Positions 36,373-49,731 of a stretch of DNA of 64,000 nucleotides are shown here, piece after piece. The position numbers and the translations under genes are program-made. The stretch's first letter is position 1. Each line of letters starts with the position of its first letter. The notes beneath the pieces were generated by a model. It had not been told where the DNA came from, searched no databases, and saw nothing but the letters and a program-made list of their open reading frames with translations. Origin of the DNA: Rhodococcus sp. X156 (GTDB lineage: Bacteria > Actinomycetota > Actinomycetes > Mycobacteriales > Mycobacteriaceae); contig NZ_CP034766.1 in the NCBI RefSeq assembly GCF_004006015.1, forward strand, positions 806,001 to 870,000, read 5' to 3'.

Positions 36373-37308
36373 GTGTCGGACGAGCTGCGACTGGACGGTC
36401 AGGTGGCCATCGTCACCGGAGCTGGCGGCGGGCTGGGGGCGGCGCACGCCGTGCTGCTCGCCGAGCGCGGCGCGCGGGTGCTGGTCAACGACCTCGGCAC
36501 GCCGGGGGTGGCCGGGGACGGCGATCCTGGTGCGGCGGAGCGGGTGGCCGCCGGCATCCGGGCCGCGGGCGGGCAGGCGCTGGCGGACACCCACTCGGTG
36601 GCCACCGTCGACGGCGCAGCGGCGATCGTCGACCACGCGCTGCAGGAGTGGGGCCAGGTTGACGTCGTGCTGAACAACGCGGGCATCTTCGGCCGCGGCG
36701 CCTTCTCGCCGCCCGAGGTCTACGACGCGGTGCTGTCCACCCACCTGATGGGCACGGTGAACGTGCTGCGGGCGGTGTGGCCGCACTTCCTGGAGCGCGG
36801 TTACGGCCGGGTGGTCAACACCGCCTCCTCCTCGTTCCTGGGCACTCCCGGCTCCGGCGACTACGCCGCGGCCAAGGGAGGGGTGATTGGGCTGAGCCGG
36901 GTGCTGGCCACCGACAACCGCGACCGCGACATCGCGATCAACGTCCTCATGCCGGTGGCGCACACCCGGATGACCGCGGCCGCGCCGGACCCGGTGTACA
37001 CCGACTGGCTGCAGCGCTGGTTCGCCCCGGAGAAGGTGGCGGCCTTCGCGCTGCTGCTGTGCCACCGCTCGGTCCCGGTGTCCGGGGAGACGTTCCTGGT
37101 GGGGGCGGGGCGGGCGTCCCGGGTGCTGTTCGCGACCACGCGCGGGCACTTCGAGGACGACCCGTCGCCGGAGTCGTTCCGGGACCACTTTGCCGAGGTG
37201 ATGGCGGGCCACGACCTGCAGACGCCGACCAGCGGGCAGGGCGACCTGATCCGCTACGCCGAGCTGCTGGGCGACCCGGGACCGTTCGCCCCGGCGGTGC
37301 CCGGCTGA
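36373..37308 (+). CDS. SDR-family oxidoreductase
   Basis: A 311-residue short-chain dehydrogenase. The cofactor motif TGAGGGLG lies at 15-22, NNAG at 101-104, and the catalytic residues are Ser152-154, Tyr164 and Lys168 (YAAAK). The sequence resembles the (R)-3-hydroxyacyl-CoA or 17-beta-hydroxysteroid dehydrogenase part of multifunctional enzyme type 2. It is thus a candidate beta-oxidation enzyme for the neighbouring catabolic genes, but no KstR2-type operator precedes it. The GTG start has a perfect AGGAGG 4-5 nt upstream. Confidence 0.87.
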   Translation: MSDELRLDGQVAIVTGAGGGLGAAHAVLLAERGARVLVNDLGTPGVAGDGDPGAAERVAAGIRAAGGQALADTHSVATVDGAAAIVDHALQEWGQVDVVLNNAGIFGRGAFSPPEVYDAVLSTHLMGTVNVLRAVWPHFLERGYGRVVNTASSSFLGTPGSGDYAAAKGGVIGLSRVLATDNRDRDIAINVLMPVAHTRMTAAAPDPVYTDWLQRWFAPEKVAAFALLLCHRSVPVSGETFLVGAGRASRVLFATTRGHFEDDPSPESFRDHFAEVMAGHDLQTPTSGQGDLIRYAELLGDPGPFAPAVPG

Positions 37309-37309
37309 G

Positions 37310-37648
37310 CTAGACCTCGGCAGCGCCCTCGATCAGCTCGTTGCCCAGCTCGCGCAGGCGAGCGTGCATGTTGCCCGGCGGCATCTGCTCGGCGATGAGC
37401 ACGCACTGGTTGCCCAGGCGACGCATCAGGTCCGCGGCCACCGCCGGGTCGGGGGCGTCGCTCTCGAGCTCGCCGCGCAGCTCGGCCAGCATGCCGCCTA
37501 TCTCCTCCAGGAGCGGTCCCTCGACACCGTCGAGGCGGTTCTGCCACCGCTCGATCTCCAGCACTCCGCCGGCCAGTCCCAGGTCGGTGGGGCCGGCCTT
37601 CAGCGCGCTCGTCGTCAGCTCGAGGTCGTGCTCTGCGGGATCGCTCAT
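37310..37648 (-). CDS. Conserved hypothetical protein, helical
   Basis: A 112-residue acidic, helix-rich protein with a Cys at about residue 82 (GNQCVLIAEQ) and no recognised domain, signal peptide or membrane segment. The ATG at 37648 starts MSDPAEHDLELTTSALK. The stop lies 1 nt beyond the convergent SDR stop. Function unknown. Confidence 0.55.
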   Translation of the reverse strand: MSDPAEHDLELTTSALKAGPTDLGLAGGVLEIERWQNRLDGVEGPLLEEIGGMLAELRGELESDAPDPAVAADLMRRLGNQCVLIAEQMPPGNMHARLRELGNELIEGAAEV

Positions 37649-37705: not shown

Positions 37706-37729
37706 TAAGGTCCGATCAAGCGCTTGCTC
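37706..37729 (+). promoter_or_regulatory. Promoter with KstR2-type operator
   Basis: A -10 element TAAGGT (37706-37711) is followed at once by the imperfect palindrome GATCAAGCGCTTGCTC (37714-37729), which contains the CAAG-NN-CTTG core of the mycobacterial KstR2 box and would cover the transcription start. The same 16-mer recurs at 40932-40947. Confidence 0.75.
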
Positions 37730-37809: not shown

Positions 37810-38502
37810 ATGACGACCACAGCAGGCGCACCGGGCCTGGCCACCACGCCCGCCCTCGACGCCGACCACCGGGAGGCCGCCGAGGACCTGGTGCGCGCGG
37901 CCCGCGAGGTGATGCTCGCCGTGGCCACCAGCGAGGCCGAGCCCGCCCAGCTGCGCGCGCACGCCGCGCGGCTGCGGGCGGCTGTCGCGGACATGGGGGG
38001 CCAGGGCCGCCCCCGGGTGATCCGCGCGCCCTTCCCCGGCCCCGCTGCCGCCAAGGCCGCCGGGCTGGACCAGCCGTGGGCGCTGTTCCGGTACAACCCG
38101 CAGGGCATCCCGATCGACGTCTTCTTCGACGGCACGACCGCGCGGGCGACCCTGCGCACCGACGCCCTGCTGGAGGGCCCGCCCGACCACCTGCACGGCG
38201 GCTTCAGCGCGCACCTCATGGACTGCATGCTCGGGGTGCTGCTGCAGGCCCAGGGCAAGCTCGTGGTCACCGCCACCCTGGACCTGCGCTACCTGCACCG
38301 CACCCCGCTGGACGCCAGCGTCGAGCTGCACGCCCGCATCCTCGACGTCAGCGGCCGCAAGACGGTGGCCGAGGGCTGGATCGAGGTGGACGGGGTGCGC
38401 ACCGTCGAGGCTCGTGGCCTGTTCATCGAGATCACCCGCGCCGAGCTGGCGGCCAGGTCGGCCGCTGGGAACCGGCTCACCGCACCCGCCGTGGAGGTTT
38501 GA
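37810..38502 (+). CDS. Hotdog-fold acyl-CoA thioesterase, PaaI-like
   Basis: A 230-residue protein. The C-terminal hotdog domain (about 115-220) contains DHLHGGFSAHLMDCMLG, the PaaI/4HBT active-site helix, and VVTATLDLRYLHRTPL. An Ala-rich N-terminal helical region of about 90 residues precedes it. It probably hydrolyses acyl-CoA intermediates or releases trapped CoA in the same pathway as the downstream ligase. The ATG at 37810 is about 80 nt downstream of the KstR2-type operator. One nucleotide separates its stop from the FadD start. Confidence 0.82.
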   Translation: MTTTAGAPGLATTPALDADHREAAEDLVRAAREVMLAVATSEAEPAQLRAHAARLRAAVADMGGQGRPRVIRAPFPGPAAAKAAGLDQPWALFRYNPQGIPIDVFFDGTTARATLRTDALLEGPPDHLHGGFSAHLMDCMLGVLLQAQGKLVVTATLDLRYLHRTPLDASVELHARILDVSGRKTVAEGWIEVDGVRTVEARGLFIEITRAELAARSAAGNRLTAPAVEV

Positions 38503-38503
38503 C

Positions 38504-40183
38504 GTGGAGACGTTCGCCGAGATCGTTCGGTCCCGAGCAGGCGACCAGGCGGTGGGTCTGCGCTTCGGCGACGAGCAGTGGACCTGGGACCAGGTGGTAC
38601 AGGAGTCAGCCGACCGCGCGGCGGCGCTCGCCGCGCTGGCCCCGGTGCCTGCGGACCGGCAGGTGCACGTCGGCGTGCTGCTGGAGAACGTCCCGGACTT
38701 CGTCTTCTGGCTCGGCGCGGGGGCGCTGGCCGGTGCGGTGGTGGTGGGGATCAACGCCAGCCGCAGCGGGCCCGAGCTCGCCCACGACATCGCCCACGCC
38801 GACATCGACGTCATCGTCACCGAGTCCCGGCTCAAGCACCTGGTCACCGGCACCGGTCAGCCGGTGCCCGCCGAGCGGGTGCTGGACGTGGACGACCCCA
38901 GCTACCAGCAGCTGCTGGCGCCGCACCGGGGCGCCGCGCTGCCCGAGACGCTGCCCGGCCCGGAGCAGCTGGCGCTGCTGATGTTCAGCTCCGGCTCGAC
39001 CGGCGCTCCCAAGGCGGTGATCGTCGGGCAGGGCCGTCTCGGTCGCCTCACCGCGGCGCTGGTGGACCGGGTGCGGATGAACCGCTCCACTGTGGCCTAC
39101 CTGTGCATGCCGCTGTTCCACGGCAACGCGGTGATGCTCAACCTGGCTCCGGCCATGGCCGTCGGCGGCACCGTGGTGCTCACCCGCAAGTTCTCCGCCA
39201 CCCGCTTCGCCGCCGACATCCACCGCTACGGCGTCACCTTCGTCAACTACGTGGGCCGGGCGCTGTCCTACGTGCTCAACCAGCCGGAGGACCCGCGCGA
39301 CCGCACCAGCACGCTGCAGCTGGCGTTCGGCACCGAGGCCTCCGAGGTGGACACCGCCCGCTTCCGGGAGCGCTTCGGCTGCGACGTGGTGGAGGGCTAC
39401 GGGCTCAGCGAGGGGGTCTTCCGCATCGGCAAGACGCCGGACACCCCGACCGGCGCGCTGGGCCTGCCGCAGAACAACGCCGACATCCGCGTCTACGACG
39501 AGAACAGCGGGCAGGAGTGCCCCCGTGCGCGCTTCGACGAGTCCGGGCGGTTGCTCAACCCCGAGGCCACCGGACAGATGGTGGCGGTCGGGCTGGCCCA
39601 CACCTTCGAGGGCTACTACCAGAACCCGGGCGCCATGGCCGACCGCGTCAAGGGAGCGGACTTCTGGTCCGGCGACCTCGCCTACCGCGATGAGGACGGC
39701 TACTTCTACTTCGCCGGCCGCTCCTCGGAGTGGCTGCGGGTGGACGGGGAGAACTTCTCCGCCGCACCCGTGGAGCGCATCCTGCAGCGCGTCCCCGGCG
39801 TCACGGCGGCGCCGGTGTACGCCGTGCCCGACCCGCGCACCGGCGACCAGGTGATGTGTGCGGTGGAGCTCAGCGCCGGGGCGTCGTTCGACCCGGCGGT
39901 CTTCGGCGCCTTCCTGGCCGACCAGCCGGACATGGGCGCCAAGTGGTGGCCCCGTTTCGTCCGGGTGGTCCAGCAGGTGCCGCTGACCGGCAGCAACAAG
40001 GTGAACAAGGCGCCGCTGCGGGCGCAGGCGTGGAACACCGCCGACCCCGTCTTCGAGCGGGTGGGGCGCGCCAGCGAGTACGTGCCGCTCGACGACGCCC
40101 GGCGCACCCAGCTCGAGGCGGAGTTCCGCGAGCACGGGCGGCTGGCGCTGCTGCCCGCCCCGCTGGAGCAGCAGGTCGGCTGA
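38504..40183 (+). CDS. Acyl-CoA synthetase, FadD17-like
   Basis: A 559-residue adenylate-forming ligase (FadD/FATP type). The P-loop FSSGSTGAPK begins at Phe161; further motifs are MPLFHGNAV, the A5-like VEGYGLSEG, the ATP-binding SGDLAYRDEDGYFYFAGR and a C-terminal Lys (SNKVNKAPL). It activates a carboxylic acid to its CoA thioester, the entry step of the pathway. Resemblance to mycobacterial FadD17 is judged by eye. The GTG start follows the thioesterase stop by one base, so both are expressed from the operator-controlled promoter at 37706. Confidence 0.88.
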   Translation: METFAEIVRSRAGDQAVGLRFGDEQWTWDQVVQESADRAAALAALAPVPADRQVHVGVLLENVPDFVFWLGAGALAGAVVVGINASRSGPELAHDIAHADIDVIVTESRLKHLVTGTGQPVPAERVLDVDDPSYQQLLAPHRGAALPETLPGPEQLALLMFSSGSTGAPKAVIVGQGRLGRLTAALVDRVRMNRSTVAYLCMPLFHGNAVMLNLAPAMAVGGTVVLTRKFSATRFAADIHRYGVTFVNYVGRALSYVLNQPEDPRDRTSTLQLAFGTEASEVDTARFRERFGCDVVEGYGLSEGVFRIGKTPDTPTGALGLPQNNADIRVYDENSGQECPRARFDESGRLLNPEATGQMVAVGLAHTFEGYYQNPGAMADRVKGADFWSGDLAYRDEDGYFYFAGRSSEWLRVDGENFSAAPVERILQRVPGVTAAPVYAVPDPRTGDQVMCAVELSAGASFDPAVFGAFLADQPDMGAKWWPRFVRVVQQVPLTGSNKVNKAPLRAQAWNTADPVFERVGRASEYVPLDDARRTQLEAEFREHGRLALLPAPLEQQVG

Positions 40184-40200: not shown

Positions 40201-40794
40201 TCAGCCCTGCTGGCCCGGCACCGCGAAGCCGGAGAAGAACAGCGTCGTCATCAGCTCGGCGAACTCCTCCACCGTGTGCCCGCGCCGGTTGGGCCAGTGG
40301 TTGGTGGCCCACAGGGTGTCGCGCACCGTGCGGTAGAAGACCTCGGCCGGGATGTCGGTGCGGAAGGTGCCGTCCGCGGCACCGGTCTCGATCGCGGTGA
40401 GCCAGTGGGCACGCACGCCGCGGGAGGCGGTGTCGATGGGCTCGAGCAGCCCGTTGTCGCGCAGGTACTGGCGGTCGTTCTGGTAGATCGCGGTGGGGTG
40501 CGGGTGCTCGTCGATCACCAGCAGCGTCTCCCGGATCAGCCCGCGGACGGTCTCCGCCGGCGAGCTGGTGCCCCGGTCCACGCGGTCGAAGCGCTCCAGG
40601 ATGTCGTCCATGAACAGCCGCAGGATCTCGCTGGCGATGGCGTTCTTGGACTTGAAGTAGTGGTAGAGGCTGCCGGAGAACACCCCGGCGGTCTCGCCGA
40701 TGTCGCGCACTGTCGTCGCGGCGATGCCTTTCTCCGCGAACAGCTCCGCGGAGGACGACAGGATCATCGCGCGTCGATCGGGTGTGGCGGCCAC
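40201..40794 (-). CDS. KstR2-like TetR-family repressor
   Basis: A 197-residue TetR repressor. The helix-turn-helix region reads ELFAEKGIAATTVRDIGETA then GSLYHYFKSKNAI, and the ligand domain (IYQNDRQYL, FYRTVRDTLWATNHW) is close to KstR2 of mycobacteria, which senses a CoA thioester of a steroid ring intermediate. It lies between two operons that both start at a KstR2-type operator, so it is the obvious regulator. The GTG at 40794 begins the conserved part; the frame is open upstream. The operator at 40932 may also control this gene. Confidence 0.85.
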   Translation of the reverse strand: MAATPDRRAMILSSSAELFAEKGIAATTVRDIGETAGVFSGSLYHYFKSKNAIASEILRLFMDDILERFDRVDRGTSSPAETVRGLIRETLLVIDEHPHPTAIYQNDRQYLRDNGLLEPIDTASRGVRAHWLTAIETGAADGTFRTDIPAEVFYRTVRDTLWATNHWPNRRGHTVEEFAELMTTLFFSGFAVPGQQG

Positions 40795-40923: not shown

Positions 40924-40947
40924 TACTGTCTGATCAAGCGCTTGCTC
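40924..40947 (+). promoter_or_regulatory. Promoter with KstR2-type operator
   Basis: -10 element TACTGT (40924-40929) and operator GATCAAGCGCTTGCTC (40932-40947), identical over 16 bp to the one at 37714-37729 and with the same offset from the -10. It lies in the divergent region between the repressor and the seven-gene operon. Confidence 0.78.
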
Positions 40948-40964: not shown

Positions 40965-41519
40965 GTGCAGAGCCTGGAGAAGCAGCTCGAGCAGTTCCTC
41001 GGGGTGGAGGCGGAGCCACCCCGCGTCGCCCGCTACGAGGTCAACGCCCCGATGATCCGCAACTGGGTGGAGGCGCACGACGACCGCAACCCCGTCTACG
41101 TCGACGCCGAGGCCGCGCGCGCCACCGGGCGCCCGGACGTGGTGTGCCCACCGGCCATGGCCTCGACCTGGGTGATGTCGGGCTACCGCCGCTACCGCGA
41201 CGTGCAGCGGATGCGCAGCGAGGGAGTGGTGGAGGACTTCGCCTACTCCCGCCTGCTGCAGCTGCTGGACGACGCGGGCTTCACCTCGGTGGTCGCCACC
41301 AACCTCGAGCAGGAGTACCTGCAGGAGATCCACCCCGGCGACCACGTCACCACGCACTTCACCATCGAGGCGATCTCGCCGGTGAAGAAGACCGGCCTGG
41401 GGGAGGGCTGCTTCATCACCCTGCTGAAGAAGTACGTCAACCAGCACGACGACCTTCTCGTGGAGGAGCGCTTCCGCCTGCTCCGCTTCAACCCCAGCAC
41501 CCAGGAGGGCGCGGCATGA
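40965..41519 (+). CDS. MaoC-like dehydratase, ChsH2 N-domain homologue
   Basis: A 184-residue hotdog protein of the FAS1-type dehydratase (MaoC) family. Its hydratase-like loop reads DDRNPVY (39-45), where the catalytic His of the D-x-N-P-x-H motif is Tyr45. This matches the non-catalytic subunit role of ChsH2, whose partner ChsH1 carries the active site in cholesterol side-chain degradation. In M. tuberculosis ChsH2 is fused to a DUF35 domain; here DUF35 is the next gene, overlapping by 4 nt. The GTG at 40965 has GGAAGGG upstream. Confidence 0.85.
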   Translation: MQSLEKQLEQFLGVEAEPPRVARYEVNAPMIRNWVEAHDDRNPVYVDAEAARATGRPDVVCPPAMASTWVMSGYRRYRDVQRMRSEGVVEDFAYSRLLQLLDDAGFTSVVATNLEQEYLQEIHPGDHVTTHFTIEAISPVKKTGLGEGCFITLLKKYVNQHDDLLVEERFRLLRFNPSTQEGAA

Positions 41520-41959
41520 GCGCACCGACCGAGAACACGCCCGCCCGGTCCACCACGGTGCCGCACCTGGTGGTCACCCAGGACAACGAGTTCTTCTTCA
41601 CCGCCGCAGCGCAGGGCCGCCTGGAGATCCAGCGCTGCACCAGCTGCGAGACGCTGCGCCACCCCCCGGCGCCGGCCTGCCCGCAGTGCCGCTCCTTCGA
41701 CTGGGACACCGTGACCGCCAGCGGCCGCTGCACCCTGCACAGCTACACCGTCATCCACCACCCGCAGGACCCCGCGTTCGAGTACCCGCTCGCGGTGGGC
41801 CTGGTGGACCTGCCCGAGGGCACCCGGCTGGTCGCCGACATCGCCGGGGTGGACCACGCCGAGCTCAGGCCGGGCCTGGAGCTGGAGATCGGCTTCGCCG
41901 AGCACGCCCACGGAGCGGTCCTGCCCCAGCTGCGCAAGCCCGCCGGCGGTGCGGCATGA
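41516..41959 (+). CDS. DUF35 OB-fold zinc-ribbon protein
   Basis: A 147-residue protein. A zinc ribbon with Cys41, Cys44, Cys55 and Cys58 is followed by an OB-fold (SYTVIHHPQDPAFEYPLAVGLVDL). In the mycobacterial pathway the equivalent domain of ChsH2 docks on the thiolase-like aldolase Ltp2 and is needed for its activity. A separate gene here implies a stand-alone docking subunit for the Ltp2-like protein two genes downstream. It overlaps both neighbours by 4 nt (ATGA). Confidence 0.88.
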   Translation: MSAPTENTPARSTTVPHLVVTQDNEFFFTAAAQGRLEIQRCTSCETLRHPPAPACPQCRSFDWDTVTASGRCTLHSYTVIHHPQDPAFEYPLAVGLVDLPEGTRLVADIAGVDHAELRPGLELEIGFAEHAHGAVLPQLRKPAGGAA

Positions 41960-42390
41960 GTACCGCCACCACCGCCCGCTTTCCCGAGGCCGCGGTGGGC
42001 GACACCCTGCCGGTGCTCGAGCTGGACCTGGACCGCACCCTCATCGTCGCCGCGGCCATCGCCTCGCAGGACTTCGAGGACGTCCACCACGACCCGGGCA
42101 AGGCCCAGGACCGCGGCACCCCGGACATCTTCCTGTCCATCAACTCCACCAACGGCTTCCTGGACCGCTACGTCACCGACTGGTCGGGCCCGGCCTCCCG
42201 GATCGCCAGGATCTCCCTGCGCCTGGGCGTGCCCAGCTTCCCCGGCGACACCCTGCGCCTGACCGGCGAGGTGACCGCGGTGGACGGCGACGCCGTCACC
42301 CTCGCCCTCCGCGGGGAGACCAGCCGCGGAGTCCACGTCACCGCCACCGCCACCGTGGTCCCCACCGCCACCGCAGGAGGAGCAGCATGA
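41956..42390 (+). CDS. MaoC-like enoyl-CoA hydratase, ChsH1-like
   Basis: A 144-residue hotdog protein. It retains the hydratase pair Asp39 and His44 (SQDFEDVHHDPGKA) and the IFLSINSTNGFLDRYVTDW segment, close to ChsH1. Together with the upstream MaoC protein it should form the hydratase that adds water to an alpha,beta-unsaturated steroid-side-chain or similar CoA thioester, giving the substrate for retro-aldol cleavage. It overlaps both neighbours by 4 nt. Confidence 0.88.
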   Translation: MSTATTARFPEAAVGDTLPVLELDLDRTLIVAAAIASQDFEDVHHDPGKAQDRGTPDIFLSINSTNGFLDRYVTDWSGPASRIARISLRLGVPSFPGDTLRLTGEVTAVDGDAVTLALRGETSRGVHVTATATVVPTATAGGAA

Positions 42391-43571
42391 GCAGCCGAGG
42401 TTTTTCCCGGGACGCCGCGATCGTCGGCATCGGCGCCACCGAGTTCTCCAAGAACAGCGGCCGCTCCGAGTGGCAGCTGGCCTGCGAGAGCACGCTGGCC
42501 GCGCTCGCCGACGCCCAGATCGGGGTGGAGGAGGTGGACGGCTTCGCGCTGTTCACCATGGAGACCAACCCGGAGATCGCGGTGGCCCGCGCGCTCGGCA
42601 TCCCCGAGCTGACGTTCTTCAGCCGCATCCCGCACGGCGGCGGTGGCGCGTGCGCCCCGGTGCAGCAGGCGGCGCTGGCGGTCTCCTCCGGCGTGGCCGA
42701 CGTGGTGGTGGTCTACCGCGCGTTCAACGAGCGCTCCGGCCACCGCTTCGGCGCCGGCCCGCCGCCGTTCGCCTACAACGCCAACACCGACCAGGAGTAC
42801 CGCAACTGGATCAACCCCTACGGGCTGCTCACCCCGGCCCAGCAGGAGGCGTTCCTGGCGCGCACCTACATGGAGCGCTACGGCGCCACCAGCGAGGACT
42901 TCGGGCGGGTGTCGGTGCTCTCGCGCAAGCACGCCGCCAACAACCCCAAGGCGTGGTTCCACAACCGTCCGATCACCCTCGCCGACCACCAGGCCTCGCG
43001 GATGATCGCCGACCCGCTGCGGATGCTCGACTGCTGCCAGGAGAGCGACGGCGGCCAGGCCCTGGTCATCGTCAGCGCCGAGCGCGCCCGCGACCTGCCG
43101 CACCCGCCGGCGCTCATCGCCGGGGCCGCGCAGGGGGTGGGGCCGCAGCAGATCTCCATGAGCAGCTACTACCGCGACGACATCGACCGGATGCCCGAGG
43201 TGGAGCTGGTGGCCCGGCAGCTGTGGCAGCAGTCCGGCGGCGGCCCGGAGAGCATCGACGCCGCGATCCTCTACGACGCGTTCACCCCGATGGTGCTGCT
43301 GCAGCTGGAGGAGTACGGCTTCTGCGGGCGCGGCGAGGCCAAGGACTTCCTCCGCGAGGGCCACGCCGACCTCGATGGACGCCTGCCCATCAACACCCAC
43401 GGCGGACAGCTGGGCGAGGGCTACATCCACGGCGTCAACGGCATCGCCGAGGGCGTGCGGCTGATCCGCGGCACCTCCACCAACCAGCCGTCGAAGTCCC
43501 TCGACAACGTCCTGGTCACCGGCGGCTCGCCGGTGCCGCACAGCGCCATCGTGCTCTCCGCCGACCGCTGA
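42387..43571 (+). CDS. Thiolase-like aldolase, Ltp2-like
   Basis: A 394-residue thiolase-superfamily protein (lipid-transfer-protein type). It starts DAAIVGIGATEFSKNSG and ends with the INTHGGQLGEGYIHGVNGIAEG block. Mycobacterial Ltp2 is an aldolase that releases propionyl-CoA from the C17 side chain and needs the DUF35 partner, which is encoded here two genes upstream. The nucleophilic Cys position of true thiolases is not obvious, in line with an aldolase. The ATG overlaps the hydratase stop, with GGAGGAG upstream. Confidence 0.88.
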   Translation: MSSRGFSRDAAIVGIGATEFSKNSGRSEWQLACESTLAALADAQIGVEEVDGFALFTMETNPEIAVARALGIPELTFFSRIPHGGGGACAPVQQAALAVSSGVADVVVVYRAFNERSGHRFGAGPPPFAYNANTDQEYRNWINPYGLLTPAQQEAFLARTYMERYGATSEDFGRVSVLSRKHAANNPKAWFHNRPITLADHQASRMIADPLRMLDCCQESDGGQALVIVSAERARDLPHPPALIAGAAQGVGPQQISMSSYYRDDIDRMPEVELVARQLWQQSGGGPESIDAAILYDAFTPMVLLQLEEYGFCGRGEAKDFLREGHADLDGRLPINTHGGQLGEGYIHGVNGIAEGVRLIRGTSTNQPSKSLDNVLVTGGSPVPHSAIVLSADR

Positions 43572-43609: not shown

Positions 43610-44818
43610 ATGACCGAGCGCATCACCTACGCCCGCGCCACCCACGGAGAGGAGGAGATCCAGGCGGTCGTGGACGTGCTGCGCAGCGGCCACCAGGGGC
43701 TGCGCATCGGCAAGAACGTGCACGAGATGGAGACCCGCGTCGCCGAGCTCAGCGGCAAGGCGTACGGGGTGATGTGCAACTCCGGGTCCTCGGGGCTGTA
43801 CCTGGCCATCGAGCTGCTGGACCTGCCCGCCGGCAGCGAGGTCATCACCTCGCCGCTGACCTTCTCCACCGACGTGGCCCCCATCGTGCGGGCCGGGCTG
43901 GTCCCGGTGTTCGTCGACGTCGAGCCCAACACCTTCAACGTCGACGTGGCCAAGATCGAGGCGATGGTCAGCGACAAGACGCGGGCCATCCTCATCCCGA
44001 ACCTGGCCGGCAACTGCCCCGACTGGGACGCCATCCGCGCGGTCGCCGACCGGCACGGGCTCAAGGTCATCGAGGACACCTGCGACGCGCTGGGCCCACG
44101 CCTGCACGGCACCCCCACCGGGGCCCGCGCCGACATCAGCGTGACCAGCTTCTCGATGGCCCACATCATCACCTGCGCCGGCACCGGCGGCATGGTGATG
44201 GTGGACGACGTGGCGCTGCGCGACCGCGCGCTGCTGCTGCGCCGCTGGGGCCGGCGCTCCGAGCCCAACCTCTTCGGCAGCACCGGCAACGGCCGGGTGT
44301 TCCGCGAGGAGCTGGACGGGGTGGACTACGACAACGACTTCATCTTCGACGAGCTGTCCTGGAACTTCGAGCCCTCCGAGCTGGGTGCGGCCTACGGCGT
44401 GGTCCAGCTGGACAAGCTGCCGGCCAACTACCGGCGTCGTCAGCAGACCTTCGCGGCCTACACCGCGGCCTACGGCGCCCACCCGGAGCTGTTCACCACC
44501 CCGGTGCAGACACCGGGCCTGGACACCGCCTGGCTGTGCTATCCGGTGATGATCAACGCCGACGCGCCCTTCACCCGCAGCGACCTGCAGGAGGCCATCG
44601 AGGGCGACGGCATCGACACCCGCACGGTGTGGAGCGGCAACATCACCCGCCACCCGATGATGGCTGGCATCGACTTCCGCCAGCCGGAGGAGGGCCTGCC
44701 GGAGGCCGACGCGGTGTTCGCCCGCGGGATGACGCTGGGCATGAGCCACGGCCTCACCGACGCCGAGGTGGAGCGCATCGCCGAGAGCATCCACCGCTTC
44801 GCCGCGAAGTGGCAGTAG
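43610..44818 (+). CDS. DegT/DnrJ-family PLP enzyme with ColD/RfbH-type His active site
   Basis: A 402-residue fold-type I PLP enzyme. The segment SFSMAHIITCAGTGG places His185 where aminotransferases have the Schiff-base Lys, and EDTCDALG (155-162) matches the ColD/RfbH/E1 sugar 3-dehydratases. These remove a hydroxyl next to a keto group using PLP/PMP. No Cys cluster follows RRWGRR, so the iron-sulphur centre of E1 is absent, as in ColD. It sits inside an acyl-CoA catabolic operon with no sugar-nucleotide genes, so its substrate is an open question. The ATG has AAGGAG about 8 nt upstream. Confidence 0.85.
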   Translation: MTERITYARATHGEEEIQAVVDVLRSGHQGLRIGKNVHEMETRVAELSGKAYGVMCNSGSSGLYLAIELLDLPAGSEVITSPLTFSTDVAPIVRAGLVPVFVDVEPNTFNVDVAKIEAMVSDKTRAILIPNLAGNCPDWDAIRAVADRHGLKVIEDTCDALGPRLHGTPTGARADISVTSFSMAHIITCAGTGGMVMVDDVALRDRALLLRRWGRRSEPNLFGSTGNGRVFREELDGVDYDNDFIFDELSWNFEPSELGAAYGVVQLDKLPANYRRRQQTFAAYTAAYGAHPELFTTPVQTPGLDTAWLCYPVMINADAPFTRSDLQEAIEGDGIDTRTVWSGNITRHPMMAGIDFRQPEEGLPEADAVFARGMTLGMSHGLTDAEVERIAESIHRFAAKWQ

Positions 44819-44871: not shown

Positions 44872-46089
44872 ATGCACCTGGACCTGTCCGCCGAGTCGAA
44901 GCAGCTGCGCCGCGAGCTGCGCGACTACTTCGCCGCCACCATCAACGACGAGGACCGCCGCGCGCTGGTCCACCAGACCGAGGGCGGGCCGGTCTTCACC
45001 CGGATCCTGCGCCAGATGGGCCGGGACGGGTGGCTGGGGCTGGGCTTTCCCGCCGAGTACGGCGGCCGGGGGGAGGACCCGGAGGCCCTCTACGTCTTCT
45101 ACGACGAGGTGATCCGGGCCAACGCCCCGCTGTCACTCGTCACCCTGAACACGGTGGCGCCGGCGCTGATGAAGCACGGCACCCAGCAGCAGAAGGACTT
45201 CTTCCTGCCGCCCATCCTCACCGGCGAGCTGATCTTCGCCATCGGCTACACCGAGCCGGGCGCGGGCACCGACCTGGCGTCGCTGCAGACCAAGGCCACC
45301 GTCGACGGCGACGAGCTGGTGATCAACGGCAACAAGATCTTCACCAGCGCCGGCGTCTTCGCGGGCTGGATCTGGCTGGCGGTGCGCACCGACCCGGACG
45401 CCCCGCGCCACCAGGGCATCTCGGTGGTGCTGGTGCCCACCAGCGCCCCGGGCTTCTCGGTCACCGAGATCCACACCGTGGGCGGCATCAGCACCGCCGC
45501 CACCTACTACGACAACGTCCGGGTGCCGCTGACCAACGTGGTCGGCGAGCTCAACGCCGGCTGGCAGCTGATCACCCACCAGCTCAACCACGAGCGGGTG
45601 GCGCTGGCCGCCCGCGGCGGGGTGGCCAACGAGCTGTTCGCCGAGGTGCTGGCCTGGGCCAAGGAGACGCACCCGGACGGCCGGCGGCCCTACGACCAGC
45701 CCTGGGTGCGCGCCAAGCTGGCCGAGGTCTACACGCTGCTCAGCGCGGCTGACCTGATGAACCTGCGGCTGGTGGCCGACGTGGCCGCCGGAACCCTGGG
45801 CGGTGGGGACTCCGCGGCCGCCAAGATCTTCGGCACCGAGGCCGTGGTCAACGCCTACGGGATGCTGCAGGAGGTGCTGGGCGCCGAGGGGCTGCTCCGC
45901 GCCGAGAGCCACGGCGCCGCCATCCAGGGCCGGGTGGAGGCACTGGCCCGACGGGCGCAGAACAACACCTTCGGCGGTGGCACCAACGAGGTGATGCGCG
46001 AGATCGTGGCCGCCAAGTGCCTGGGCATGGCCCTGGCCGCCCGGCGCCGCGAGGACCCGAAGCAGCCCAGCACGAGTGGAAAGAGCTGA
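44872..46089 (+). CDS. Acyl-CoA dehydrogenase (FadE), subunit 1
   Basis: A 405-residue flavin acyl-CoA dehydrogenase. The FAD and substrate blocks GYTEPGAGTDLASLQT, NHERVALA and NTFGGGTNEVMREIVA are present. It lies one base before a second FadE gene; paired FadEs of this kind in steroid degradation (ChsE1-ChsE2) form alpha2-beta2 heterotetramers with two FADs, and the same is expected here. GCAGGAG lies 8-9 nt before the ATG. The C-terminal tail is basic and Ser-rich. Confidence 0.9.
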   Translation: MHLDLSAESKQLRRELRDYFAATINDEDRRALVHQTEGGPVFTRILRQMGRDGWLGLGFPAEYGGRGEDPEALYVFYDEVIRANAPLSLVTLNTVAPALMKHGTQQQKDFFLPPILTGELIFAIGYTEPGAGTDLASLQTKATVDGDELVINGNKIFTSAGVFAGWIWLAVRTDPDAPRHQGISVVLVPTSAPGFSVTEIHTVGGISTAATYYDNVRVPLTNVVGELNAGWQLITHQLNHERVALAARGGVANELFAEVLAWAKETHPDGRRPYDQPWVRAKLAEVYTLLSAADLMNLRLVADVAAGTLGGGDSAAAKIFGTEAVVNAYGMLQEVLGAEGLLRAESHGAAIQGRVEALARRAQNNTFGGGTNEVMREIVAAKCLGMALAARRREDPKQPSTSGKS

Positions 46090-46090
46090 C

Positions 46091-47221
46091 ATGGAGTTCG
46101 AGCTTGACGACGACCTGGCCTCCGTGCGCGAGCTGGCCGGGCAGATCTTCACCGACCTCGGCGAGGTGGACCGGCTCCGCGCCGCCGAGCGCGACGGCAG
46201 CGGTTTCGACGAGAAGCTGTGGCGGGTGCTCAGCGAGGCCGGCCTGGTGGGCATCGCGGTGGGCGAGGTGCACGGCGGCGCCGGGCTGGGCACGCTGGGG
46301 ATGATCACCCTGCTGGAGCAGCAGGGCCGCCGGGTGGCGCCCGTGCCGCTGTGGGCGGTGCTGAGCATGGCCGTGCTGCCGCTGGCCGAGCACGGCTCAC
46401 CCGAGCAGCAGCAGCGCTGGCTGCCCTCGCTGCTGGACGGCTCCACCCTGGTCACCGGCGCCTTCGACGTGCCGGCCGGGGTGGCGGCGGTGCTGCGGGC
46501 CGAGCTGGCGGGGCAGGGCTGGACCCTGCACGGGGAGGTGCCGGTGGTCCCCGCCGCGCAGCGCGCCGCCGCGGTGCTCGCTCCGGTGCTGCTGCCCTCC
46601 GGCGAGGTGATGGTGGTGGTGGTGCCCACCGACCGCGCCGGCGTCACGGTCACCCCGGTGCACGTCACCAACCACGAGAGCGCGGCGGCGCTGAGCCTGT
46701 CCGGGGTGGCGGTGGGCCAGGAGGATGTGCTGCCCGGCGACGGCGCGGAGATCACCGCCTGGGTGCGCCGACGGGCCCAGCTGGCGCTCGCGGCGCTGCA
46801 GCTGGGCGTGTGCGAGGAGGCGCTGGCGATGACCGCCAGGTACACCTCCGAGCGGGTGCAGTTCGGTCGGCCGCTGTCCACCAACCAGGCCGTGGCGGTG
46901 CGCGCGGCGGACGCCTACCTGGACACCGAGAGCATCCGGCTGACCACCCAGAAGGCGGCCTGGCTGATGGATGCCGGGCAGGAGGACGAGGCGCGGGCGG
47001 CCACCCTGGTGGCCAAGTGGTGGGCGGCCAAGGGTGGGCTCCGCGCGGTGCACGCCACCCAGCACCTGCACGGCGGCATGGGCGCGGACATCGACTACCC
47101 GATCCACCGCTACTTCCTGTGGGGCCGCCAGATCGCCTTCACCCTGGGCAGCGCGGCCGCGGTGGAGGCAGAGCTGGCCGAGGTGCTCGAGCACGGCGGC
47201 GCGATCGGCTCCCCAGCCTGA
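46091..47221 (+). CDS. Acyl-CoA dehydrogenase (FadE), subunit 2
   Basis: A 376-residue FadE partner. It has the short N-domain (MEFELDDDLASVRELAGQIF), RYTSERVQFGRPLSTNQAV, and the C-terminal HLHGGMGADIDYPIHRYFLW block of the FadE27/28-type subunit. The middle beta-domain is poorly conserved, and the usual TEP-G-GSD FAD loop is replaced by GAFDVPAGV, as in non-catalytic subunits of heteromeric steroid FadEs. It is the last gene of the operon and is followed by a long inverted repeat. Confidence 0.88.
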   Translation: MEFELDDDLASVRELAGQIFTDLGEVDRLRAAERDGSGFDEKLWRVLSEAGLVGIAVGEVHGGAGLGTLGMITLLEQQGRRVAPVPLWAVLSMAVLPLAEHGSPEQQQRWLPSLLDGSTLVTGAFDVPAGVAAVLRAELAGQGWTLHGEVPVVPAAQRAAAVLAPVLLPSGEVMVVVVPTDRAGVTVTPVHVTNHESAAALSLSGVAVGQEDVLPGDGAEITAWVRRRAQLALAALQLGVCEEALAMTARYTSERVQFGRPLSTNQAVAVRAADAYLDTESIRLTTQKAAWLMDAGQEDEARAATLVAKWWAAKGGLRAVHATQHLHGGMGADIDYPIHRYFLWGRQIAFTLGSAAAVEAELAEVLEHGGAIGSPA

Positions 47222-47333: not shown

Positions 47334-47954
47334 TCAGGCCCAGGTGAGGGTGTCGGCCTGCTCCAGGCGGGGCAGCCGGTCGAACCAGGCGTTCTCCGCG
47401 GCGGGGTGGCCGATGTTCACCACCAGCTGCGAGCGCCAGCGGCCGTCGGCGAAGAACTCCGCGTCGATGCCGGCGTGGTCGAAGCCGGCCATCGGGCCTG
47501 CGGCCAGGCCGGCCGCGCGCACGGCCAGGATGAAGTAGCCGGCCTGCAGCGCGGCGTTGAACGTGCCCATGCCGGTGCGCATGGCCTCGTCCGCCTCGAA
47601 GGCGTCGCGCATCCCCGGGTTGATCGGGAAGACGGTGGGCAGGTGGTCGTGGAAGCGGCTGTCCACGGCGAGCACGGCGACCGCGGGGGCGGAGGCGGTC
47701 TTGGCCTGGTTGCCCTCGGCCATGTGCGGCAGCAGCCGCGCCTTGCCTTCGTCGGTGCGCACGTAGAGCACCCGCATCGGCTGGGTGTTGGCGGCGGTGG
47801 GCGCCCACTTGGCCAGGTCCCAGATGCCGGCGAGCTCGTCGTCGGTCACGGGGGTGTCGGTGAAGGCGTTGGCGGTGCGCGCCTCGGTGAACAGGATCTG
47901 ACGGCTGAGCTCGTCGATCGCGGTACCGGCGGTGGAGCTCGTCGTGGAGGTCAC
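47334..47954 (-). CDS. Nitroreductase-family protein, RutE/HadB-like
   Basis: A 206-residue FMN nitroreductase-fold enzyme of the malonic semialdehyde reductase type. It shows ELSRQILFTEARTANAF, KWAPTAANTQP for FMN binding, and FDHAGIDAEFFADG near the C-terminus. Relatives reduce malonic semialdehyde to 3-hydroxypropionate or reduce nitro compounds. The GTG start at 47954 is divergent from an HxlR regulator 78 bp away, the standard layout for an HxlR-controlled reductase responding to quinones or aldehydes. Confidence 0.87.
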   Translation of the reverse strand: MTSTTSSTAGTAIDELSRQILFTEARTANAFTDTPVTDDELAGIWDLAKWAPTAANTQPMRVLYVRTDEGKARLLPHMAEGNQAKTASAPAVAVLAVDSRFHDHLPTVFPINPGMRDAFEADEAMRTGMGTFNAALQAGYFILAVRAAGLAAGPMAGFDHAGIDAEFFADGRWRSQLVVNIGHPAAENAWFDRLPRLEQADTLTWA

Positions 47955-48420: not shown

Positions 48421-49731
48421 TCAGCCCTGCGGAGCGCAGGTGCTCGGCGCCGGGCCGGTGCTGCCGGTGGCCGCAGCCACGAAGCGCTCGTAGAGCCAGC
48501 GCTGGGCGTCGGGCGCACCGAGCACGAACGGCAGCGCGTGGCCGATGCCGACCCCGGGGAACACCGCCGGCAGGGTGATCTCCTGCAGCTGCACCCTGGT
48601 GCCCGGCTGGGCGCACCAGTCCGCGGCGAGCTGGCGAACCTGCCCGATGGGGACCACGTCGTCGTTGGTGCCGCTCCAGAGGTAGACCGGGGCGTCCGGG
48701 GTGTGCCGACCCACCCGCAGGTCGGCCAGCGCCGAGGCGAAGGGCTCGGTGAACAGGAAGGAGGTGAACGGCTGACCGTCGACGGTGTACTGGCCGGACT
48801 GCTGGAAGCCGAACCGCAGGATGGTCTCGCCCAGGCACTGCGTGCGCACGGCCTGGACGAAGTCCTTCCCGCGCTGGTTCAGCCGAGCGTCGAAGGCGGC
48901 CGCCAGCTGGGGGTCGTTGGCGGCGAGGCTGTTGATCGCGTAGCCCAGCGCCCCGGAGAGGATGGTGCCGTCGCTGCCCATCGCCACCGGGACCACGTCG
49001 GCCGGGGGAGCCCCCACCGCGCTGCCCACCAGGTTCACCTGCGGGGCGTAGGTGGAGTGCAGCTCGGCTGCAGCCCCCGCCGCCTGCCCGCCCTGGGAGT
49101 AGCCGTAGATGCCGACCGGGCCGTCGGCGGGGACGTCGAGGCCAGGCACCTCGCGGCCCAGGTTCTGCGCAGCGGTGGCGGCGTCGAGCACGGCGTGCGC
49201 CTCCTCCACCGGGTTGAGGTAGCTGTGCACCCGGTCGGGGGTGCCCAGGCCGAGATAGTCGGTGACCACCACGTTGGCGCCCGCGGCCAGCAGCGAGGGC
49301 AGGGTGATCGCCTCGTACTCCAAGCCCTGGCCGAGCAGCACCGACGGCGCGCACTGGTCGCCCTGACCGATGGTGCCCACCGCGTAGCTGATCAGCGGGC
49401 GGTCGCCGCCGCCACGCCACGGGGCGGTGGCCTGCAGCACCGTTCCGGTGACAGCCACGGCCTCGCCGTTCGCGTCGGTGCTCTTGTACATGATCGTGGT
49501 GGCGGGCACGCCCAGGTAGGCCACCGTGGCGGGCCGGTGGCGGACGAGGTCGCCGTTGGTCGCGGGCAGCTCCGCGGGTGGCGTGTAGAACGCAGCGCCG
49601 CCCAGGGCAGCGTCTCCGGGAGCGGCGGCGCCGGGAGCAGCGGCGCCGGCGGGCGCGGTGGCCAGCACCGTCAGCCCCACTGCGGCCAGGGCGATGACGG
49701 GGATGGTCCGCAACCGGTGCCGAGCGAGCAT
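48421..49731 (-). CDS. Secreted lipase (LIP family)
   Basis: A 436-residue alpha/beta hydrolase. A signal peptide (about residues 1-30, ending PAGAAA) targets it outside the cell. The nucleophile elbow is GYSQGG with Ser212; the catalytic Asp is probably in LWSGTNDDVVP and the His in GIGHALPF. Two Cys near the C-terminus may form a disulphide. The family includes secretory lipases and mycobacterial-type esterases acting on host or environmental lipids. A strong AAGGAGAGG site precedes the ATG. Confidence 0.88.
   Translation of the reverse strand: MLARHRLRTIPVIALAAVGLTVLATAPAGAAAPGAAAPGDAALGGAAFYTPPAELPATNGDLVRHRPATVAYLGVPATTIMYKSTDANGEAVAVTGTVLQATAPWRGGGDRPLISYAVGTIGQGDQCAPSVLLGQGLEYEAITLPSLLAAGANVVVTDYLGLGTPDRVHSYLNPVEEAHAVLDAATAAQNLGREVPGLDVPADGPVGIYGYSQGGQAAGAAAELHSTYAPQVNLVGSAVGAPPADVVPVAMGSDGTILSGALGYAINSLAANDPQLAAAFDARLNQRGKDFVQAVRTQCLGETILRFGFQQSGQYTVDGQPFTSFLFTEPFASALADLRVGRHTPDAPVYLWSGTNDDVVPIGQVRQLAADWCAQPGTRVQLQEITLPAVFPGVGIGHALPFVLGAPDAQRWLYERFVAAATGSTGPAPSTCAPQG

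Follow-up and report, generated by a model that had tools for sequence, protein, structure and literature searches.

Gene content of the locus

The window, by which we mean the whole 64,000-nucleotide stretch of the Rhodococcus sp. X156 genome that was analysed, holds an intact open reading frame on the forward strand, 43610-44818, which runs from an ATG at 43610 to a stop at 44818, encodes 402 amino acids and is designated D. By profiles, PDB match, alignment, tree and fold, D (43610..44818, +) is a predicted His-type, DegT/E1-like PMP-dependent dehydratase, and its gene has that of an Ltp2-type steroid aldolase on one side and, on the other, genes for two steroid acyl-CoA dehydrogenase (ACAD) subunits. 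The aldolase gene, immediately 5' of D (42387..43571, +), matches the Thermomonospora curvata Ltp2 (6ok1, E 1.7e-161), and the ChsE-type ACAD subunits match 6wy8_B (E 4e-123) and 4x28_A (E 2.6e-111) in the case of the first (44872..46089, +), and 6wy8_A (E 2e-79) and 4x28_D (E 6e-51) in the case of its partner (46091..47221, +). On the other side of the aldolase are a MaoC hydratase subunit equivalent to the N-terminal part of ChsH2 (40965..41519, +; 4w78/4wnb ChsH1/ChsH2, E about 5e-32), a zinc ribbon and OB-fold protein equivalent to the split-off C-terminal part of ChsH2 (41516..41959, +; PF12172, PF01796), and a small ChsH1-like hydratase subunit (41995..42390, +), for which a Pfam search gave no match and which was assigned through synteny in 25 loci and 49% identity to the paralogue at the equivalent position of a second such set in the host genome. 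A KstR2-like TetR repressor is encoded divergently (40201..40767, -; 4w97/4w1u KstR2, E about 2e-32), and beyond it lie a CasI-like steroid-22-oyl-CoA synthetase (38504..40183, +), whose top NCBIfam model is NF052587 (E 7.6e-193; 642 bits, below that model's 900-bit cut-off), and a 4HBT thioesterase-like protein (37810..38502, +; PF03061, E 2.2e-6). An earlier note, made from the letters of the DNA, had named MaoC hydratases, an Ltp2-like aldolase and two FadEs as the neighbours, and both the coordinates and the solved relatives bear this out.

Judged by sequence, the neighbours of D make up a complete set for removal of the C3 (steroid-22-oyl) side chain, accompanied by a KstR2-like repressor, with the features of igr/cas-type systems: a heteromeric ChsE, ChsH1/ChsH2 with an OB domain, Ltp2 and a C22-CoA ligase. 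In the breakdown of cholate, CasI is the activating enzyme for C3 side chains, after which an ACAD, a MaoC heteromer and an aldolase release propionyl-CoA and leave a 17-ketone (PMC8399759). What had been described as a steroid-like operon can thus be called steroid-type, its best solved relatives being Ltp2 (6ok1), ACAD (6wy8/4x28), ChsH1/ChsH2 and KstR2, and we hold it highly probable that the pathway around D is of this kind. A fatty-acid or terpene pathway is not favoured: the neighbours have steroid enzymes as their best solved relatives, and KstD, KshA and HsaD-like genes are found near other D genes.

For the KstR2-type operator that had been proposed there is also a candidate: CAAGCGCTTG occurs exactly at 40935-40944 and at 37717-37726, with the KstR2-like TetR gene divergent. 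The 3.72-Mb genome has just two mismatch-free copies of the form TCAAGCGCTTG, and each of them is in the window. One, a perfect site at 40934..40944 (no strand assigned), has the TetR gene on one side and on the other the ChsH-Ltp2-D-ACAD operon, in front of which it is a predicted operator; the second predicted operator, also perfect (37716..37726, no strand assigned), lies in front of the thioesterase-ligase pair. Among intergenic regions beside divergent TetR genes of the same cluster, 27 of 35 contain CAAGNNCTTG with at most one mismatch. The putative regulator is KstR2-like by similarity, with a TetR match to KstR2 (4w97, E 2e-32) and CAAGnnCTTG-type palindromes.

Other genes border these. 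An SDR oxidoreductase (36373..37308, +; PF00106) is possibly linked to the pathway, and no operator was seen in front of it. A 112-amino-acid protein without a family match (37310-37648, -) is encoded divergently to the thioesterase gene and starts about 70 bases from the second operator. A nitroreductase (47334-47954, -) and a secretory lipase (48421-49731, -; PF03583) adjoin the operon, with no operator seen in front of either.

Family, catalytic residues and fold

D belongs to the DegT/DnrJ/EryC1/StrS family, with the DegT/aspartate-aminotransferase fold (Pfam PF01041, 267 bits). Its top NCBIfam model is RfbH (NF011936; 259.5 bits, below the curated 423-bit cut-off), and its top PDB match in a phmmer search is E1 of Yersinia (3bcx, E 4e-51, 177 bits), with ColD at 118 bits. 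It had been claimed that His185 replaces the Schiff-base lysine, and indeed the phmmer alignment to 3bcx sets His185 (codon 44162..44164, +) on the catalytic His of E1, at the catalytic-base position that is Lys in aminotransferases; in an alignment with relatives, the residue is His in all 58 clade rows that have a residue there. The motif EDTCDALG, likened earlier to that of the sugar 3-dehydratases, has the clade-wide form EDxCD and is common to D and E1, as are WGR, Tyr240-Asp241, Asn252 and GN..R (near 343-347). The change from Lys to His does not by itself prove a reaction, and D could be another PLP enzyme of the same pathway, such as an aminotransferase with another base, or a non-catalytic or regulatory protein with the PLP fold; we think this improbable, since the His-type residues listed above are kept in 57-58 of the 58 clade rows, which argues for conserved dehydratase chemistry.

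The four cysteines that bind [2Fe-2S] in E1 are all absent from D, where the alignment shows S217, E218, P219 and others instead, and they are retained in the next-nearest actinobacterial relatives (L079-L090). In E1 and SpnQ the [2Fe-2S] cluster serves reduction, and in ColD, which lacks the cluster, hydrolysis of the intermediate gives an enamine, from which ammonia is lost, with glutamate renewing PMP (PMC8987622). The missing cysteines rule out an iron-sulphur reduction of the E1/E3 type for D and favour a ColD-like, glutamate-fed PMP mechanism. To go by its residues, D has ColD-type equipment despite a sequence closer to E1. The earlier assignment to a ColD/RfbH type is thus right as to the E1/RfbH lineage and needs amending in its detail, because D stands closer to E1/RfbH than to ColD but does not have the Fe-S ligands of E1.

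An AlphaFold model of D built from a 33-sequence input (pLDDT 83, pTM 0.85) has E1 as its best Foldseek match, and VIA-align gave Z 45.2 with E1 (rmsd 2.5 over 367 residues) and Z 42.2 with ColD; the model is unreliable at the catalytic loop 183-190 and at 214-251, where pLDDT is below 50.

Distribution and gene settings

A contig scan of genomes returned 55 clade loci, distributed over Rhodococcus, Nocardia, Prescottella, Tomitella, Geodermatophilus, Blastococcus, Nocardioides, Actinomadura, Streptosporangium, Nakamurella, Saccharopolyspora, Amycolatopsis, Dactylosporangium and the Acidimicrobiia. The settings of D were defined by gene clustering, with locus genes called by our own script. 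The type A setting, ChsH-Ltp2-D, comprises 27 loci and the window, and D is often followed there by an SDR, a steroid 3-ketoacyl-CoA thiolase (NF005889, above cut-off), a fused ACAD and two ChsE-type ACADs. Ltp2 lies directly 5' of D in 27 of 27 fetched type A loci as well as in the window, and the recurrence of this adjacency in 27 loci beyond the window means that the arrangement is not due to chance; an isolated local insertion or a misassembly is ruled out by the same recurrence. Type B, mainly from Prescottella, has D together with amidohydrolases, an SDR and a fused ACAD, and some of these loci also contain KshA. In types C and D, from Nocardia and Saccharopolyspora, the gene of the D protein is accompanied by a mycofactocin-type SDR, a VOC protein, an LLM oxidoreductase and an organic-acid transporter, with KstD, KshA, and HsaD-like or HsaB-like genes nearby in several. 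The matches near other D genes include KstD at 1025 bits (above cut-off) and KshA (4qdf, E 2e-164), besides HsaD-like and HsaB-like proteins. D adjoins Amidohydro_2 proteins at L053-L057, L060, L071, L072 and L103, with two such proteins in the Prescottella-type loci, and L072 seemingly has two tandem copies of D.

At fixed identity thresholds, steroid-degradation markers lie within about 10 kb in 43 of 60 actinobacterial D loci, which were found via D, so that these counts are silent on how often such operons lack D. The genes rfbF/rfbG were found in none of the 60 at the same kind of threshold, which goes against the case that the earlier note would have taken as a refutation, homologues always lying with sugar-nucleotide genes and near FadE genes only here. 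Control loci gave a different picture, with a steroid marker in 0/12 and rfbF/rfbG in 3/12 E1-like loci, and a steroid marker in 0/5 and rfbF/rfbG in 5/5 alphaproteobacterial loci. Seventeen of the 60 D loci have no steroid marker at the thresholds used; those inspected contain SDR, VOC, LLM or transporter genes, not sugar-nucleotide genes. Homologues of rfbF/rfbG were likewise found neither in any clustered D locus nor in the window, as had been said of the latter, where no sugar-nucleotide gene had been seen nearby.

A sample chosen regardless of D, 299 genomes of the order, was searched with D and with the Ltp2 of the window. D is present in 8 of these genomes and the window's Ltp2 subtype (at least 78% identity) in 6, five of which also have D. 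The sixth (G257; L157, genes 2-10) has a syntenic operon without D and without the SDR that in many loci comes after D, with a TetR of 70% and an Ltp2 of 83% identity, which rules out D as an obligate partner of Ltp2. The host genome itself contains a second Ltp2-ChsE-ChsH set without D (L096, C1:972000-991900, genes 7-11), with a fused ChsH2 and an Ltp2 that is 64% identical to that of the window. Given these two sets without D, D has the appearance of an addition that serves substrates bearing an extra group. The L096 set is followed by peptide-type ABC transporter genes, and similar ABC genes lie near D in some Nocardia loci. A spot check of ring degradation in the host found three KstD-like places.

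Phylogeny and origin of D

In a maximum likelihood tree (quick search, 68 rows), the actinobacterial D proteins form a single group (SH-aLRT 96) whose sister consists of plasmid-borne alphaproteobacterial proteins with 46-51% identity. Together, the two clades are the sister of the Fe-S-bearing E1/RfbH group, and the Lys aminotransferases fall outside the His-type group (SH-aLRT 99), the root position being less certain because of long outgroup branches. The earlier note had held that D is not an aminotransferase and had set a phylogeny beforehand as the test of this claim; D falls among the His-type dehydratases, and this placement in the tree, along with His at 185, rules out a Lys aminotransferase.

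The sister genes lie directly 3' of rfbF and rfbG, usually ahead of a methyltransferase and a reductase gene, on plasmids of Leisingera, Roseibium, Palleronia, Sinorhizobium and Ensifer (L138-L141, L144). Their products also lack the Fe-S cysteines and, as in D, have an extra residue after T188 and Glu254, so that Glu254, common to this CDP-sugar clade, is ruled out as a steroid-specific mark. These proteins are probably CDP-sugar 3-dehydratases without an iron-sulphur cluster. About 30 columns have one fixed residue in the first clade and a different one in the second, residues 86, 88, 131, 216, 218, 229 and 242 among them. With such a sister group, D might still be a 3-dehydratase of a CDP- or other NDP-4-keto-6-deoxyhexose whose gene merely travels with steroid genes, but we judge this very improbable in view of the 0/60 count for rfbF/rfbG, the position of D within a putative KstR2-type regulon with a whole side-chain pathway, and the differently fixed columns. 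Rather, the presence of the sister clade in rfbF-rfbG operons makes it appear that, in D, a sugar 3-dehydratase has been taken over by steroid catabolism. The simplest history would be that a CDP-sugar 3-dehydratase already without Fe-S was taken once into actinobacterial catabolism, a change of substrate class suggested by gene context and residue shifts.

Proposed reaction and substrate

From its sequence, we consider it likely that D catalyses a PMP-dependent deoxygenation, and somewhat likely that it is, as the best explanation has it, a PLP/PMP enzyme acting on a steroid catabolite, which would lose a hydroxyl alpha to a ketone. In PMP enzymes of this type, the hydroxyl that is expelled comes from the carbon adjoining the bound ketone. 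With the cofactor state and the glutamate donor that we infer, PMP would form a ketimine with the steroid ketone, His185 would take the C4' proton, the alpha-hydroxyl would depart, and the enamine freed from PLP would be hydrolysed to the deoxy-ketone and ammonium, PMP being renewed by an amino donor such as glutamate, as in ColD.

The surrounding genes would strip the C3 side chain as propionyl-CoA to give a 17-ketone. C13, a neighbour of C17, is quaternary, and hence only C16 can bear a removable alpha-hydroxyl beside this ketone. Since Ltp2 gives a 17-ketone with C16 as the sole free alpha-carbon, we infer a 16-hydroxy-17-ketosteroid, an alpha-hydroxyketone, as the substrate, an argument that presupposes action of D on the Ltp2 product. 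Action at C16 specifically is, in our estimation, a possibility somewhat short of an even chance. For a glycosidic side chain, suggested earlier as one target, there is no support; a ring ketone produced by the aldolase is the simpler target.

Another alpha-hydroxyketone position may apply, above all in types C and D. The same deoxygenation could take place at a 2-hydroxyl beside a 3-ketone, at an 11-hydroxyl beside a 9-ketone after ring B opening, or at a 17- or 21-hydroxyl beside a 20-ketone. KstD and KshA near D in Nocardia favour another steroid position, and the mycofactocin-type SDR, Baeyer-Villiger-type monooxygenase and esterase adjoining D in Saccharopolyspora would suit 20-ketosteroids; however, throughout the largest group, with its 27 loci and the window, D has as its invariant neighbour the aldolase, whose product is the 17-ketone, not an enzyme acting at C20, C3 or C9, and we regard another position as unlikely.

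The most likely substrate of D is then a 16-hydroxy-17-ketosteroid. Plant sapogenins with oxygen at C16, 16-hydroxy bile acids and steroids of the estriol type are examples of compounds from which it would arise. Among plant sapogenin products, the 22,16-lactones of the vespertilin type are C22 acids (PMC2983680, PMC7287600). Estriol is converted in cultures to 16alpha-hydroxyestrone and then to estrone, and the authors of that study suggest that a dehydroxylase or dehydratase, still unidentified, is at work (PMC12502722); a 2025 review finds it not clear how estriol becomes estrone (PMC12507874). According to the same review, 16alpha-hydroxyestrone is the product of a Rhodococcus 17beta-HSD, and estriol supports growth of Rhodococcus sp. 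B50 through a mechanism that was not reported (PMC12507874). Neither publication concerns D, and the suggested link between D and estriol dehydroxylation is our own.

D would combine a known chemistry and fold with a new pathway and probably a new substrate class. If this is true, its fixation in steroid-degradation operons over many actinobacterial genera would represent a clear change of substrate class and of pathway direction, and D would be the gene for a step seen in cultures without an assigned enzyme, the loss of the C16 hydroxyl beside a C17 ketone (PMC12502722, PMC12507874). It would then be a candidate for the C16 dehydroxylase of actinobacterial estriol, sapogenin or 16-hydroxy bile acid degradation. 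We tentatively put forward, at rather less than even chances, that in D catabolism has its first PMP-dependent deoxygenase acting on a non-sugar substrate. D would then be a steroid 16-dehydroxylase, turning a 16-hydroxy-17-ketosteroid into a 17-ketosteroid, and derived from a CDP-sugar 3-dehydratase after Fe-S loss. Such an enzyme could serve steroid biotransformation and the tracing of hormone breakdown in sewage.

Comparison with known systems

Nucleotide sugars are the substrates of every characterised member of the enzyme group of D, and the pathways are biosynthetic (PMC8987622). A full-text literature search found no report of a DegT/PLP enzyme in steroid or Rhodococcus catabolism, and terms of the aminotransferase type were absent from the examined literature on steroid-degradation genes and genomes and from the Sphingobium sapogenin paper. 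The nearest solved relative of D by both sequence and fold is E1/RfbH, the CDP-4-keto-6-deoxyglucose 3-dehydratase of Yersinia (3bcx), with which it has in common its fold, a His at the Lys position and the motifs EDxCDALG, WGR and GN..R. D differs from E1 in the absence of the four cysteines for [2Fe-2S], in a single additional residue following T188, in Glu254 instead of Lys, and in lying among steroid genes without rfbF/rfbG. ColD, the GDP-4-keto-6-deoxymannose 3-dehydratase (2gms/3b8x), resembles D as a His type without Fe-S, with a glutamate-fed cycle proposed for D as well, but it acts on a GDP-sugar, has another gene context and is less similar to D (118 versus 177 bits for E1). The alphaproteobacterial RfbH-like proteins share with D the lack of Fe-S cysteines, the extra residue and Glu254; they differ in being encoded in CDP-sugar operons and in the roughly 30 columns fixed differently.

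At the level of the operon, the window resembles igr of M. tuberculosis and casI and casL-casP of Rhodococcus jostii RHA1 in its CoA ligase, heteromeric ACAD and Ltp2 aldolase, and the RHA1 list of C3 side-chain genes names no DegT-type gene (PMC8399759). The MaoC heteromer with a DUF35/OB domain is a further likeness to the igr/cas genes. Control of the KstR type is presumably common to C3 side-chain genes of this kind. What sets the window apart from igr/cas is that ChsH2 is divided into two genes and that D is inserted after the aldolase.
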